Positions 569 through 5,121 of a DNA stretch of 10,008 nt are shown in pieces; positions within the stretch are counted from its first letter, which is position 1; each line of letters begins with the position of its first letter. The stretch spans positions 1-10,008 of the forward strand of contig JALOMU010000021.1 of NCBI GenBank assembly GCA_025455285.1. Direction: 5' to 3'. Both the position numbers and the translations under genes were made by a program. Origin of the DNA: Flavihumibacter sp. (GTDB taxonomy: Bacteria > Bacteroidota > Bacteroidia > Chitinophagales > Chitinophagaceae). The notes below the pieces were generated by a model. That model saw only the letters and a program-made list of their open reading frames with translations, made no database searches and was not told the DNA's origin.

Positions 569-736
569 AACAGGTGGTCAAATCACCATTGCTAAATACC
601 GTGTTTATACGGGTTGCCTTTTTGATAAGGATATTTTAGTTTAGTAAAATCATTCAGTAGCTACGAATTGCGGGATATTTTTCCTCGATTGACCCAAAGA
701 AAAATAAAGTAGAGGATCAAAAACAAACATCCAAGT

Positions 737-925
737 ATGCAGAAGTTAGAGTTAGTGCAGATGGGACTTGAATCCTTAGAGGATCAGGAGCTGCAGGAAA
801 TTGAAGGAGGAGCCTGGCCAAAATGGCTCAAAGGCGTAACATGGGTATCCATTGGCAATGAGATCATTGAAAATTGGACAGATGTCAAGAAGGGATTTAT
901 CGATGGATGGAATTCAATCAATTAA
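737..925 (+). CDS. Double-glycine-leader peptide precursor 1 (bacteriocin-like)
   Basis: This is a 62-residue protein with an acidic leader ending in LQEIEGG (residues 19-25), the classic recognition site for C39-type leader peptidases. Cleavage after Gly25 would release a 37-residue core starting AWPKW. The core has five tryptophans (27, 30, 36, 47, 58), no cysteine, four Lys balanced by four Asp/Glu, and a GFIDG (GxxxG) motif at residues 53-57 of the kind used for helix-helix contact in two-peptide bacteriocins. The absence of Cys rules out disulfide- or lanthionine-based maturation. It lies 12 bases upstream of a second leader peptide and in the same direction as a membrane fusion protein and a C39 ABC exporter. 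Known: such leaders mark class II bacteriocins and related secreted signals. Inferred: antibacterial activity; a signalling peptide is the alternative. There is no clear Shine-Dalgarno sequence. Confidence 0.85.
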   Translation: MQKLELVQMGLESLEDQELQEIEGGAWPKWLKGVTWVSIGNEIIENWTDVKKGFIDGWNSIN

Positions 926-937
926 AAAACAAGTTTT

Positions 938-1153
938 ATGAAACAGACAGCAATTGATGTGTCAAGATTTGAGGGAATGAGTGAGTTGTCTATAGAGCAA
1001 CTGCAGTGTATTGAAGGTGGTGGGCCATCTCCGGAAACCAGCTTTTGGTATGATTTGCCTTATTTGGCAGGTGCAACGCTAAAGGCAGCCTGGACCTTTG
1101 CTAAGAGTGCAGTGGAATATCAGCATTCCTTACCGGCAAATCTGAAAAAGTAA
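938..1153 (+). CDS. Double-glycine-leader peptide precursor 2 (bacteriocin-like)
   Basis: This 71-residue protein has a leader matching precursor 1 in its last residues (EQLQCIEGG, 20-28), with Cys24 where the partner has Glu. Cleavage after Gly28 would release a 43-residue core starting GPSPETSFWYDLP. The core contains an alanine-rich helix-like stretch (about 43-59) with AxxxA motifs at 46-50 and 51-55, and a basic C-terminus (Lys70, Lys71). It has no Cys or obvious modification site. The core shares little sequence with precursor 1, as is usual for the two halves of a class IIb bacteriocin. The 12-base spacing from precursor 1 implies one transcript. A GC-rich hairpin follows directly. Partnership with precursor 1 is inferred from adjacency, shared leader and complementary GxxxG/AxxxA motifs. 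Two independent peptides remain possible. Confidence 0.82.
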   Translation: MKQTAIDVSRFEGMSELSIEQLQCIEGGGPSPETSFWYDLPYLAGATLKAAWTFAKSAVEYQHSLPANLKK

Positions 1154-1156
1154 ATC

Positions 1157-1190
1157 AAAGGACCGGGTGCAATCAAGCCCGGTCCTTTCA
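1157..1190 (+). terminator. GC-rich hairpin after the two precursor genes (attenuator or 3' stabiliser)
   Basis: An 11-bp perfect stem (1157-1167 with 1178-1188, core GGACCGGG/CCCGGTCC) with a 10-base loop starts four bases after the stop of precursor 2. The only T-run (TTT) is inside the stem and the following bases are CAATAAATC, so it is a weaker intrinsic terminator than the one at 517-568. It may end only part of the transcription, or protect the 3' end of a short precursor mRNA. Either would make the peptides more abundant than the downstream membrane proteins. Confidence 0.65.
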
Positions 1191-1200
1191 ATAAATCAAT

Positions 1201-1293
1201 ATGAAAGAGGAACTATCAAAACTGACCACCTTTCAATGGGTGGTTTTAATAGGAGCTATTTTTTTATTACTTAAATCTATACTGAAATGTTAA
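1201..1293 (+). CDS. 30-residue single-span membrane peptide overlapping the CPBP gene
   Basis: An ATG at 1201 opens a 30-codon frame ending at TAA 1291-1293. The product has a charged N-terminus (MKEELSK), a 17-residue hydrophobic stretch from Leu8 to Leu24 (with Trp13 near one interface), and a basic tail ending KSILKC. This is the layout of a small single-span inner membrane protein with both ends charged. Its last seven bases, ATGTTAA, contain the start codon of the next gene (1287), which suggests translational coupling. It fills the space between the hairpin and the CPBP gene almost exactly. By position it could be an immunity peptide or a partner of the CPBP protein. No double-glycine leader is present, so it is not another precursor. 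I do not recognise a family. The overlap and the TM-like composition argue for real coding, but the ORF is very short. Confidence 0.55.
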   Translation: MKEELSKLTTFQWVVLIGAIFLLLKSILKC

Positions 1294-1784
1294 TAGCAAG
1301 TCTTAAAAGCATAGGCAACGGATATGCTCAGCTTACAAAGCAGTTTGCTAATTGGCAGGTTGTATTCCTGGTATTGCTGGCTATAGTTGTGAACTTGCTG
1401 ATTACAGCTCTTTTTTCAATTGTCTTATTCCCTGGTCATAAAGCTGTTCCTGCGACTGAACAATCGATCTATTTTTTTCTGACAGTTTTTATTATTGGAC
1501 CTTTTCTTGAAACCTATTTTGTTCAAAGAGGTATTATCAATTATATACTTAAAAAGTGGCCAACTGAATTTTTAATGGCATGTTTGATTTCTTCCCTTGT
1601 ATTTGCAGCCTTTCACTATTATTCGATCCCATATATTCTAAAAACCTTTTTATCCGGATTTATATATGGTACTCTTTACATATCAGTAAAACAAAAGGAT
1701 CAAAATGCCTTCCTCGCTACCCTGATTGCACATGCAGTTTTTAATGGCCTGGGTTTCTGCATTACCCTACTGCTGCGCTCTTGA
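1287..1784 (+). CDS. CPBP/Abi-family intramembrane protein, putative bacteriocin immunity or accessory protease
   Basis: This 165-residue polytopic membrane protein has hydrophobic spans at about 24-48, 60-75, 95-110, 114-134 and 141-163. It carries the three motifs of the CPBP (CAAX protease / bacteriocin-processing) family in order. The first is ETYFVQ at 75-80, where the usual EExxxR has become ETxxxQ. The second is FxxxH at 106-110. The third is HxxxN at 149-153. Glu75, His110 and His149 are the expected catalytic or metal-binding residues and are all kept. Family members in lactic acid bacterial bacteriocin loci (the Abi immunity proteins) protect the producer. Here the gene sits between the precursors and the export genes, starts inside the preceding tiny ORF, and is separated from the HlyD gene by only 3 bases. 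Immunity is the best guess. Help in peptide maturation is the alternative. Confidence 0.82.
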   Translation: MLIASLKSIGNGYAQLTKQFANWQVVFLVLLAIVVNLLITALFSIVLFPGHKAVPATEQSIYFFLTVFIIGPFLETYFVQRGIINYILKKWPTEFLMACLISSLVFAAFHYYSIPYILKTFLSGFIYGTLYISVKQKDQNAFLATLIAHAVFNGLGFCITLLLRS

Positions 1785-1787
1785 ATA

Positions 1788-2993
1788 ATGTACATAACAT
1801 CAAAACTGACCGGCATGAATACATCCGGAATGAATTTCTATACTCCACTTGCTGGTTCCGCCATGTATCGGTTGATCCTGCTGCTTGTAATTCTTTCTAT
1901 TGGAGTATTACCTTTTATAAAAACAACCGTGTCTGTTACAGCCAGGGGAATTATAAGACCGGTAGATGAACGCACGGAAGTGAAGCCTGTGCTCTCTGGA
2001 ACGATCGACTCTTTGCTTGTTAAAGAAGGGGATAGTGTAGGCAAAGGACAGTTGATTGCCGTCCTGAGAAATGAAATCACCCAGCCTAAACAAGTTCAGC
2101 AGGATTTTGAATTCAGCCAGCGAATGCTGTTTATACGTGATCTGGAAAGATTGACTTCCTCACCGGATCTGAAAACCCTTTCCTTGCAATCTCCCCTCTA
2201 CCGGCAACAGTTAAACAAGGTAGTATTTGAATTAGAAAGATTGGAAGCAGCCATCCGAAAAGTCAACCGCGAACAGGAAATCAATCAGCAGCTGATAAAA
2301 GACAAGATTATTGCTCCTAAAGAACAGTTCGATAAAGAGATCGAAGCAGAAACCCTGTCCGCCACCTATAATGCGTATAAAAATGAACAACTGAGCAACT
2401 GGCAATTAGAACTACAAAGATACAGGCAAGAGAATTCGCAATATGCTGTTCATAAGAAACAACTGGAAACAGAAACTAAAAATCATTTTATTTATGCGCC
2501 TGTTTCCGGAGTGGTTCAAAACATCAATACCCGTTACAAGGGCGGATTCATTTCAAGCGGTGAAACCATTTGTTTACTTTCTCCAATAGGAGGGTTAGTT
2601 GGTGAATGTTATGTTTCTGCAAAGGATGTCGGATTGCTGAAAGTCGGTTTGACTGCCCGCTTTCAGATAGATGCATTTCACTACAACTATTTTGGTATGC
2701 TGACTGGTAAGGTAGTTTACATTGAAGATGATTTTTCCATTATTGAAAATCGTCCGGTGTTTAAAGTAAGGTGCAGTTTTGATACTACCCGCCTGTTTCT
2801 TAAAAATGGATACAGCGGAGAACTTAAAAAAGGACTCAGCTTCCAGTCCAGGTTTGTGGTGGCAGAGCGCACCTTATGGCAATTGTTATTTGATAAAGTC
2901 GACGACTGGCTCAATCCAACTGCGCCGGTTTTGTCAAAAAGTGAGACAGGATATGAAGAGAAGGGTAAAAATAAAACAGCGGGATATCAGTGA
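1788..2993 (+). CDS. HlyD-type membrane fusion (periplasmic adaptor) protein of peptide exporter
   Basis: This 401-residue protein has a short cytoplasmic N-terminus, one transmembrane helix at about 28-44, and the HlyD layout. There is a first lipoyl half at about 63-94 (LSGTIDSLLVKEGDSVGKGQ), a Gln/Glu/Lys-rich coiled coil at about 96-230, a second lipoyl half at about 233-266 (IYAPVSGVVQ), and a C-terminal beta-barrel/proximal region to about 375. It would link the ABC exporter in the inner membrane to a TolC-like outer membrane channel, which is not in this window. The ATG at 1788 follows the CPBP stop by 3 bases. Met10, Met15 and Met26 are other possible starts. The last 41 bases, coding for a polar tail, overlap the start of the C39 ABC gene, so the two are probably translated together. 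The family assignment is secure. The substrate (the two leader peptides) is inferred from the neighbourhood. Confidence 0.92.
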   Translation: MYITSKLTGMNTSGMNFYTPLAGSAMYRLILLLVILSIGVLPFIKTTVSVTARGIIRPVDERTEVKPVLSGTIDSLLVKEGDSVGKGQLIAVLRNEITQPKQVQQDFEFSQRMLFIRDLERLTSSPDLKTLSLQSPLYRQQLNKVVFELERLEAAIRKVNREQEINQQLIKDKIIAPKEQFDKEIEAETLSATYNAYKNEQLSNWQLELQRYRQENSQYAVHKKQLETETKNHFIYAPVSGVVQNINTRYKGGFISSGETICLLSPIGGLVGECYVSAKDVGLLKVGLTARFQIDAFHYNYFGMLTGKVVYIEDDFSIIENRPVFKVRCSFDTTRLFLKNGYSGELKKGLSFQSRFVVAERTLWQLLFDKVDDWLNPTAPVLSKSETGYEEKGKNKTAGYQ

Positions 2994-5121
2994 TTGCGGA
3001 GCAGCCTGCCTGGCGTCGATTTCCATGCACTACAAATTGCAGTTTCCCATTAGCAGAATCCGGCAATATGCAGGAACAGATAAACGCGGCACCAATGTGC
3101 TGGGATTGATTGAAGCTGCAGAACGCCTCGGTTTCCAGGCTAAAGGCGCGAAAGGCCAGCTGAACAATCTTTCCGGCATACCTCTTCCTGCTATCGCTCA
3201 TATTATTCTGAAGAGTGGTTTGCATCACTATGTAGTCATCTATAAGGTATCAAAAAATACAGTTGTCTACCTGGATCCCGGCGATGGTGATTTTCACAAA
3301 CTGGACTTGGATAAATTTAAAGATATCTGGTCCGGTGTGCTAGTACTGCTTTTGCCCGGGACCAATTTTGTTGCAGGCAAACACAAGATCAGTAATGTGC
3401 AGCGATTCTGGAACCTGATAAATCCGCACCTTAGTATCATGCTGCAGGCATTGATTGGTGCAGTTATTTACACCTTCCTTGGTTTATCTACTTCCATTTA
3501 CCTGCAGAAAATCATTGATTTTGTCTTGGTGGAAGGTAATATCCGCTTGCTCAATCTACTGAGTATTGGCATGATTGCGATTCTATTGTTCCAACTAATA
3601 ATTGGTGGATATAAAACCGTATTTGGATTGCAAACGGGGCAACTGATTGATATCCGCCTGATAATGGGGTACTATAAACATTTGCTGAACCTTCCTCAAC
3701 GATTTTTCGATACCATGCGGGTAGGTGAAATTATCAGTAGGGTAAACGATGCTGTCAAAATAAGAGAGTTTATCAACAGCGTTGCTCTCAGTTTTATTGT
3801 GAATGGATTGATTGTTGTTTTCAGTATCCTGCTCATGTTTTTCTACTACTGGAAACTGGCTCTGCTTATGTTGGCGATTATCCCCTTTTACCTGCTTATC
3901 TATTGGATCACCAACAAGGTCAACAAGAAGTGGCAAAGACGATTAATGGAAGAAAGCGCTGAGCTGGAAAGCCAGATGGTGGAAAGTCTGAATTCAGTGG
4001 GCACCATCAAACGATTTGGCCTGGAAGGATTTTTCAATGAAAAAACCGAGGATAGGTTTCTGACACTGCTGCAAACCATCTATAAAATGAGTATGTACTC
4101 GTTGTATATAGGATCAGGGTCTGAATTCATCACCCGCTTCTTTACCATTCTTCTTTTGTGGGCGGGTAGTTTTTTCGTAATCAGCAATGAATTGTCGACA
4201 GGCGAACTGCTTTCCTTTTATGCATTGATCGGTTATTTTACTGGTCCGGCCAGCTCCCTGATCACCGCCAACAGGAGTATCCAGGATGCCTTGATTGCAG
4301 CGGATCGATTGTTTGAAATTATTGATCTGGAAACAGAAGCGATCAATGAAAACAAAGTTGAACTGACTCGCGATCAAATAGGAGATATTGAATGTAATGA
4401 GCTCAGTTTTCGATATGGTAACCGGACTTCTGTATTTAGTGACCTAAACCTACAAATTAAAAAAGGTTCCACCACTGCCATCGTTGGAGAAAGTGGCAGC
4501 GGAAAATCAACCCTGCTTTCCTTACTGCAGAACTTATATCCTTTGCATGGTGGAACAATTACTATAGGAGGACTTGATCTGCAATACATCAGTAACAGGA
4601 GCCTTCGACAACTGGTAGCCGTGGTGCCTCAGCACATAGATCTATTCAGTGGAACAATCATAGAGAATATTGCGTTAGGAGACCCGGAACCTGACCTGGG
4701 CCGTATTTTATTCCTGGCAAAAAAATTAGGAATAGATGAATTTATTGAAAAGCTACCCAGTACCTATAACAGTATAGTGGTTGAACAGGGTACCAATTTT
4801 TCAGGCGGACAAAAACAGCGGTTGGCCATCGCCCGGGCACTTTATCGAAATCCGGAGATTTTAATCCTGGATGAAGCAACCAGCAGCCTGGATCCGGCAA
4901 GTGAGCAAAAAGTACAGGAAACCCTGAGCTGGTTTAAAGCCCAGGGTAAAACCATCATTCTCATTGCGCACCGGCTGAGCACCATCAGGAATTGTGATCA
5001 GATACTGGTGCTGAATAAGGGCAAATTAGTTGAACAGGGAAAGCATTTTGAATTGCTGGAAAAAGAAGGACACTATGCCCGATTATGGGACTATCACTCT
5101 GCCAGCACCCTTCAGCATTAG
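2953..5121 (+). CDS. Peptidase-containing ABC exporter (C39 domain, TM domain, ATPase) for double-glycine peptides
   Basis: The 722-residue product has three parts. The N-terminal C39 cysteine protease domain (about 8-130) has the motif QRDISDCGAACL, with Gln9 and catalytic Cys15, and a His motif HYVV with His92 and Asp108 (LDP). The transmembrane domain covers about 160-440. The C-terminal ATPase has Walker A GESGSGKST (512-520), Q-loop Gln560, signature FSGGQ (616-620), Walker B LILDE (Asp640, Glu641) and H-loop His673. All catalytic residues are intact, so both leader cleavage after Gly-Gly and ATP-driven export are expected at the inner membrane. The start at 2953 (MKRRVKIKQRD) is chosen because it places the protease motif near the N-terminus as in the family. 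The open frame upstream to 2779 is merely the shadow of the HlyD gene. The gene overlaps HlyD by 41 bases and its stop overlaps the convergent zinc-ribbon gene. No terminator is visible. Confidence 0.95.
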   Translation: MKRRVKIKQRDISDCGAACLASISMHYKLQFPISRIRQYAGTDKRGTNVLGLIEAAERLGFQAKGAKGQLNNLSGIPLPAIAHIILKSGLHHYVVIYKVSKNTVVYLDPGDGDFHKLDLDKFKDIWSGVLVLLLPGTNFVAGKHKISNVQRFWNLINPHLSIMLQALIGAVIYTFLGLSTSIYLQKIIDFVLVEGNIRLLNLLSIGMIAILLFQLIIGGYKTVFGLQTGQLIDIRLIMGYYKHLLNLPQRFFDTMRVGEIISRVNDAVKIREFINSVALSFIVNGLIVVFSILLMFFYYWKLALLMLAIIPFYLLIYWITNKVNKKWQRRLMEESAELESQMVESLNSVGTIKRFGLEGFFNEKTEDRFLTLLQTIYKMSMYSLYIGSGSEFITRFFTILLLWAGSFFVISNELSTGELLSFYALIGYFTGPASSLITANRSIQDALIAADRLFEIIDLETEAINENKVELTRDQIGDIECNELSFRYGNRTSVFSDLNLQIKKGSTTAIVGESGSGKSTLLSLLQNLYPLHGGTITIGGLDLQYISNRSLRQLVAVVPQHIDLFSGTIIENIALGDPEPDLGRILFLAKKLGIDEFIEKLPSTYNSIVVEQGTNFSGGQKQRLAIARALYRNPEILILDEATSSLDPASEQKVQETLSWFKAQGKTIILIAHRLSTIRNCDQILVLNKGKLVEQGKHFELLEKEGHYARLWDYHSASTLQH

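Follow-up and report, generated by a model that had tools for sequence, protein, structure and literature searches.

Two adjacent double-glycine peptide genes conserved in Chitinophagaceae as a candidate two-peptide bacteriocin of Bacteroidota

Two-peptide bacteriocins are known mainly in Gram-positive bacteria and have rarely been described among Bacteroidota. The window analyzed here, one whole contig of 10,008 bases from a Flavihumibacter assembly (2.6 Mb, 492 contigs, 56% complete), carries near its start two short adjacent genes whose products had been proposed to act together on membranes, which raises the question whether they encode such a bacteriocin in a Gram-negative host. Relatives of the window within the same genus include Flavihumibacter fluminis RY-1 (L032) and F. 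cheonanensis WS16 (L033).

The plus strand encodes, in this order, peptide A, peptide B, a hairpin, a 30-codon gene, a CPBP protein, an HlyD protein, and a C39-ABC exporter. The original prediction described two short open reading frames 12 bases apart, with leaders ending in LQEIEGG (A) and LQCIEGG (B), Cys-free cores of 37 and 43 residues and a C39 exporter beside them, and all of this was confirmed. The precursor of peptide A (737..925, plus strand) has 62 residues, comprising a leader (1-25) and a core (26-62) with the family motif NWxDxKKGxxxGWN, and the precursor of peptide B (938..1153, plus strand) has 71 residues (leader 1-28, core 29-71), with FWYD early in the core and a YQxSLPxNLKK tail. 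The exporter belongs to the same operon (2953..5121, plus strand; Pfam Peptidase_C39, 1.2e-31), and its score against TIGR01193 for peptidase-containing ABC exporters (537.8 bits) exceeds the cut-off of 523.85. Directly 3' of peptide B lies a strong hairpin (1157..1188, plus strand), an inverted repeat of -22.1 kcal/mol (z -7.46; none of 200 shuffles folded as well), which is perhaps a partial terminator or an mRNA end setting peptide expression above exporter expression. It is followed by the gene for a 30-residue peptide with a single membrane span in its translation (1201..1293, plus strand; maximum 19-residue hydropathy 2.01), a CPBP (Rce1-like) membrane protease (1287..1784, plus strand; Pfam Rce1-like, 3.9e-12), and an HlyD-type periplasmic adaptor (1788..2993, plus strand; Pfam HlyD_3, 1e-12; TIGR01843, 1.2e-34, below the cut-off of that model). 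The 30-codon gene, like a conserved element upstream of peptide A, had been left out of the original prediction. Located 3' of the exporter are a Zn-ribbon protein, an EthD-type protein and an opposite-strand DUF1801 protein, then a sigma-70-type factor and a TPR protein. A search of an anti-phage library returned no match for peptide A, peptide B or CPBP.

Peptides A and B look like genuine genes because of their dN/dS values and their homologs in other genera. When the window, F. fluminis and F. cheonanensis were compared with one another, dN/dS was 0.08-0.23 for peptide A, 0.09-0.15 for the 30-residue peptide, and 0.13 for CPBP; for peptide B it was 0.29-0.31 between the window and each of the other two, and between F. 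fluminis and F. cheonanensis zero synonymous change gave no ratio. All four thus look like real genes under purifying selection. Protein searches at E<=1 returned four relatives of A and 12 of B (the latter count including the window's own protein), and a profile of A found 52 relatives at E<=0.01; one B homolog already carries the name 'Bacteriocin-like protein' in one database source. Between F. fluminis and F. cheonanensis, the peptide B gene has changed at one base, with dS values of 0.26 for A and 0.16 for the 30-codon gene. Because B is near-identical while A and the 30-codon gene differ far more, the sequences suggest that the B gene was exchanged by recombination between these two lineages.

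Within the Chitinophagaceae, intact A and B genes were found together at 17 loci (the window, L032-L040, L056, L061, L064, L066, L070, L071, and L072), separated by 150 bases in L064. CPBP is present at 16 of the 17 pairs, the exception being L056, and HlyD plus exporter at 15, the exceptions being L061, which stops at a contig end, and L064, with no HlyD or exporter within the 16 kb taken; in L071, HlyD is split and the exporter extends to the contig end. A scan of genome contigs for B confirmed nine loci from 21 stretches, with A immediately upstream in all nine; its pattern, YQ[SHN]SLP[AP]NL, detects this tail alone, and some B-only loci were missed. In a draw of 394 family genomes, A and strong B matches co-occurred in 10 genomes, with B only in three and A only in three (Fisher P=3.6e-15), at cut-offs of E<=0.01 for A (13 genomes, three of them partial) and E<1e-9 for B (13 of the 28 genomes with E<=0.01); the test treats the A and B scans as the same genome draw, and is partly circular since the profiles derive partly from loci already seen and the B cut-off was set post hoc. 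None of the 15 weaker B matches in this draw was accompanied by an A match. Whether the two always occur as a pair had been put forward as a check of the original prediction: A and B are inherited as an ordered pair, as seen at the 17 family loci, and strict pairing is contradicted by five family loci where B lacks an intact A. The original prediction had given homologous loci with one peptide alone as an observation that would speak against it, and these five are loci of that kind.

Beyond the family, the A profile matched 25 of 395 genomes drawn from the phylum at E<=0.01 (the window's genome included), many of the matches covering the leader only. From 14 of the other 24 genomes we took 14 loci (L130-L143), 11 of which contain 13 A-B-like pairs with the gene order conserved, weak scores underlying some of the assignments. 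These 11 loci include eight with a full exporter match and four with CPBP. L132 and L135 have kept A and have B interrupted, and L143 could not be assigned. Inspection by eye found G or A at both motif places in 10 of the 13 A peptides, the remaining three being those of the first pair of L139, of L141, and of L142, and the FWxD-like start of B was often recognizable, with tails that differ (SLPANLKK, KQPPELIGVK, FYK, and others). A short helix-turn-helix-like frame, possibly a regulator, was seen by eye upstream of the peptide genes in L134, L138, L140, and L144.

The proposal of joint action had rested on a GxxxG motif at residues 53-57 of A and on two 'complementary' AxxxA motifs at residues 46-50 and 51-55 of B, all of which are present. 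Shuffled cores gave at least one GxxxG in A with P=0.27 and two AxxxA in B with P=0.22, and since such single-sequence counts are not above chance, the motif argument has to be made from conservation, and for A only. An alignment of 20 A precursors has G53 in all 20, G57 in 19, and W58 in 18. Among 27 aligned B precursors, a small residue (G, A or S) occupies position 45 in 25, position 46 in 15, position 50 in 20, position 51 in three and position 55 in 20, and position 58 in 25 of 26. Judged from these alignments, the GxxxG of peptide A is a family feature and the two AxxxA motifs of B as such are not, the first being partly conserved and the second not; their proposed complementarity is not supported. 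The description of the cores as Trp-rich suits A (five Trp in 37 residues) and less so B (two in 43). Counting K, R, D, and E, the net charge is 0 for the A core and +1 for the B core, which is not clearly cationic. Comparison of eight B proteins that are close relatives gave 0.47 differences per site for the middle of the peptide (29-52), 0.18 for the leader, and 0.20 for the tail, a pattern that a specificity region would produce.

Structure models were obtained with AlphaFold for two pairs, each entered as an in-frame A-B read-through chain with the intergenic stop read as Gln, and reached a mean pLDDT of 60 and 56 and a pTM of 0.40 and 0.46. In these models, the tail of A is helical from residue 47 and the core of B forms one helix of about 29 residues (block pLDDT 67-77). 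Helices in both peptides are thus plausible as modeled, whereas the heterodimer is too weakly modeled for reliance, and the heterodimer prediction proposed as a check yielded no reliable dimer. Among solved structures, none was similar by sequence, the matches being to unrelated proteins alone (E 0.38-0.62).

The operon resembles class IIb bacteriocins such as lactococcin G/enterocin 1071 and plantaricin EF in its adjacent double-glycine precursors, C39 exporter, membrane immunity candidate, and GxxxG in one peptide. The two peptides are different, keep their gene order, and appear unmodified, with no modification enzyme among the Pfam matches of the ten window proteins scanned; double-glycine leaders and the C39 ABC exporter are found in one operon; and of the GxxxG-like motifs that class IIb has in both peptides, that of A is held in 20 of 20 and 19 of 20 sequences at its two glycines, whereas in B 46-50 is partly conserved and 51-55 is not. 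In contrast to class IIb, none of eight cores matches NCBIfam, the host is Gram-negative and has HlyD, and the AxxxA of partner peptide B is poorly conserved. Class IIb peptides are typically cationic, a usual and not a strict feature, unlike the near-neutral cores found here. Lactococcin G-beta/enterocin 1071B (NF038034) was considered as a true relative and rejected: the precursor scored 21.9 of 37 bits, below the cut-off, its core alone gave no match, the eight cores scanned alone gave no NCBIfam match, and no sequence-similar solved structure turned up.

A membrane protein that could confer immunity, CPBP, accompanies nearly all family pairs and, as given above, a minority of the pair loci in the wider phylum, and an immunity role of CPBP proteins has been discussed for Gram-positive loci in the available part of one report (PMC10059821). 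We consider CPBP most likely to be the self-immunity protein. Conservation of the 30-residue peptide extends to F. fluminis and F. cheonanensis and, less strongly, to L034. For two-peptide bacteriocins, immunity proteins of one to four membrane spans are described according to the part of the source at hand (PMC6957408), and since single-span immunity proteins thus exist, the 30-residue peptide becomes a second immunity candidate, as a putative accessory factor. In L066 (6804-6920, minus strand) and L069 (7792-7923, minus strand), leaderless single-span peptides are encoded immediately upstream of HlyD, and their tails copy the C-terminal motif of peptide A (DWEDAKQGFLDGYN, NWGEIKRGFKNGWN); judging by this likeness, they possibly provide immunity by mimicry of peptide A.

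A Gram-negative precedent for a two-peptide system is Cdz of Caulobacter crescentus (CdzC/CdzD/CdzI), which, in the excerpt available, resembles the operon described here in its type I export and has a small transmembrane immunity protein, a role for which the present operon has its candidates, and in which a nearby CaaX gene is not needed (PMC5380434). The Cdz proteins carry extended hydrophobic GxxxGxxxG zippers and remain on the cell (PMC5380434, same excerpt), whereas here a single GxxxG lies in the Trp-containing tail of A and none in B; membership of the contact-dependent Cdz group was rejected, as extended glycine zippers do not occur in both peptides. Bacteroidetocins likewise come from Bacteroidota and combine a small peptide with a transporter bearing a double-glycine peptidase domain, and the accessible part of their description gives a single class IIa-related peptide whose locus also encodes a thiol oxidoreductase and a five-span protein (PMC6671954). 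In contrast, the present operon has two Cys-free cores and CPBP, and a Pfam scan of ten window proteins found no thiol oxidoreductase; assignment to the bacteroidetocins was therefore rejected.

Taken with its leaders, the C39 exporter, the conserved pairing and order, the conserved G53 and G57, and the variable middle of B, the operon probably encodes a class IIb-like two-peptide bacteriocin without modifications, made by a Gram-negative member of the Bacteroidota, with CPBP (or the 30-residue peptide) as immunity protein. Against this reading stand the five B-only loci, the absence of CPBP from L056 and its presence at just four of the 11 pair loci of the wider phylum, the near-neutral cores, the AxxxA motifs that are not conserved as such, and the weak dimer models. 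The genes, leaders, exporter domains, pairing, order, and purifying selection are directly established, and from them we infer how cleavage, joint action, target, and immunity may be arranged. Both precursors would be cut after Gly-Gly by the C39 domain of the operon's own exporter, and exported via this C39 ABC exporter, HlyD, and a TolC-type outer-membrane channel encoded elsewhere. The mature peptides of 37 and 43 residues would be mostly helical, with the C-terminal GxxxG helix of A packing against the long helix of B, and A and B would jointly damage the envelope of related bacteria. The variable middle of B would set specificity, and CPBP, possibly together with the 30-residue membrane peptide, would protect the producer.

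The five family loci with intact B and without intact A (L059, L060, L063, L145, and L144) have all kept exporter and HlyD along with B. In L059 the A frame is truncated by a stop right after the first G of its motif. L144 has CPBP, HlyD, and exporter although an intact A is absent. In the other four CPBP is not intact, L059 (E 0.01) and L060 (E 0.12) showing faint traces of it. These four and L056 share a common site beside a similar-looking gene, confirmed as a deoxynucleoside kinase in L063, and an intact CPBP is found in none of the five; the three exporters checked (L056, L059, and L063) have kept their C39 domain. Such persistence of B would be expected if B were the active peptide or toxin by itself and A a dispensable enhancer or a second independent bacteriocin, and in line with this every full-length A match in the family came with B, while three partial A matches (G230, G297, and G328) lacked a B match. 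However, 17 other family loci and 11 of the 14 taken from the wider phylum have A upstream of B. That four of the five loci without intact A have no intact CPBP either points to B perhaps needing no immunity when it is alone, and outside the family L132 and L135 retained A with B interrupted. We consider it rather unlikely that B acts by itself; the joint loss of A and CPBP at one site would make sense if A were required for toxicity, although this is no proof. L146 contains a B-like frame alone, without Gly-Gly. In L062 (7575-8681, G008), a shortened exporter frame is overlapped by a remnant of the B tail, and a relative of the first gene of the window lies upstream, indicating a decayed locus, apparently in the same place.

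Double-glycine peptides serve also as pheromones, and instead of being toxins the peptides could accordingly be secreted as signals or placed on the cell surface, a reading for which the weak matches of several members to ComC or BlpC models and the kinase-linked loci without an intact CPBP might be cited. However, the eight cores scanned alone match no NCBIfam model, which places the ComC and BlpC matches in the leader. Neither a histidine kinase nor a response regulator was found among the ten window proteins scanned with Pfam, which come from about the first 8 kb, and both the frequency of CPBP at family pairs and the variable middle of B argue against a signal, making this reading distinctly improbable. 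The Nap island of Neisseria provides a Gram-negative precedent of a different kind, in which C39-processed helical double-glycine peptides with a LagC-like protein are proposed to cause autolysis, and peptides acting on the producer's own population by programmed lysis would be its counterpart here. As far as the part of the report at hand extends, that island has three cationic peptides, a separate C39 peptidase, and a FapF-related channel (PMC11798529), whereas the present cores are near-neutral and accompanied by C39-ABC and HlyD; we regard programmed lysis as very improbable, and retain the two-peptide bacteriocin as the preferred reading.

The conserved element upstream of peptide A (653..717, plus strand) could form an H-type pseudoknot with an A-rich loop, pairing GGG 672-674 with CCC 693-695 and CCTC 683-686 with GAGG 712-715. 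The F. fluminis and F. cheonanensis copies are near-identical to it, and it can still be recognized in Sediminibacterium (L034) and Hydrotalea (L040). A pattern for it occurred 10 times in nine of 394 family genomes, against zero for the reversed pattern. By eye, four occurrences precede A-B pairs (the window, G003, G004, and one in G237), five precede other double-glycine-type frames (L164, with a very short leader, L170, L171, L172, and L173), and that of L169 precedes a protein with C39 and VKOR domains, with no peptide seen there; one further copy, in G857, precedes a double-glycine frame (L162). The element is also present at L160, alongside L162, L164, and L169-L173, and a similar arrangement was seen by eye in L131. 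A model of the element matched strongly at six of the 17 intact pair loci (the window, L032, L033, L034, L040, and L064), weakly at L071 (E 0.0013), and at none of the rest. In an order-level draw, scanned with filters under which weak matches drop out, three of 198 genomes matched, two of these with strong scores, and the element is thus not order-wide. Upstream of A, seven loci (L034, L035, L036, L037, L040, L071, and L072) have another non-coding stretch that is conserved (GAGTTCACGGTAGCGGGA...GCGTGACGC), looks by eye like a hairpin, and is absent from the window; L035-L037 and L072 carry it in place of an element match.

Stem 1 (GGG/CCC) is invariant, and the fourth pair of stem 2 is CG, TA, TG or GC in a comparison anchored by hand, with L034 having no anchor and L064 three pairs. 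Stem 2 reached a single-sequence significance of p 0.05 or less in two of 13 sequences, and RNAalifold returned only the invariant GGG/CCC pairing, without covariation; its consistent place and the changes at the fourth pair are what would argue for this stem. Rfam gave no match in the window at gathering scores, and in 16 loci around the upstream elements four sub-gathering matches, none convincing. Just upstream lies a candidate Bacteroidota-type promoter (614..644, plus strand), with TTG (614-616), 20 nt, and TAGTTTAG (637-644), boxes named by what we take to be the Bacteroidota consensus. Boxes and spacing are the same in L032 and L033 although the intervening sequence has diverged; the score was reached by 3-6% of shuffles, and the boxes hold in the three Flavihumibacter and not in all 13 element sequences. 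Given these promoter-like boxes, the element may be the 5' end of the mRNA, and possibly a pseudoknotted leader RNA, a lead still unproven. A broader reading, in which a phylum-wide two-peptide bacteriocin superfamily (a GxxxG-helix A, an FWxD-helix B, and tails swapped between lineages) goes with a shared unnamed pseudoknotted leader RNA governing some double-glycine operons of Chitinophagaceae, is possible and, to our judgment, somewhat doubtful.

The original prediction held a Trp-rich unmodified pair from a Gram-negative Bacteroidota to be largely uncharted, which agrees with the literature as far as it was covered: among the matches listed, by titles and abstract beginnings and with subscription papers outside the scope, we found no unmodified two-peptide bacteriocin of Bacteroidota. 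The Hungate1000 study reports 21 two-component clusters, with no Bacteroidota producer named in the part seen (PMC13289728), and a 2015 survey, in its available part, lists one 'unmodified' cluster in a Bacteroides strain, not stated to be two-peptide (PMC4573289). If true, a conserved pair family in this major Gram-negative phylum would offer candidate narrow-spectrum antibacterials, and would raise the question of how the two peptides get through the outer membrane or make use of it. Loci without A, most of them also without CPBP, form a natural test of which peptide is toxic, and with a shared leader element more peptide operons could be located and their regulation approached.
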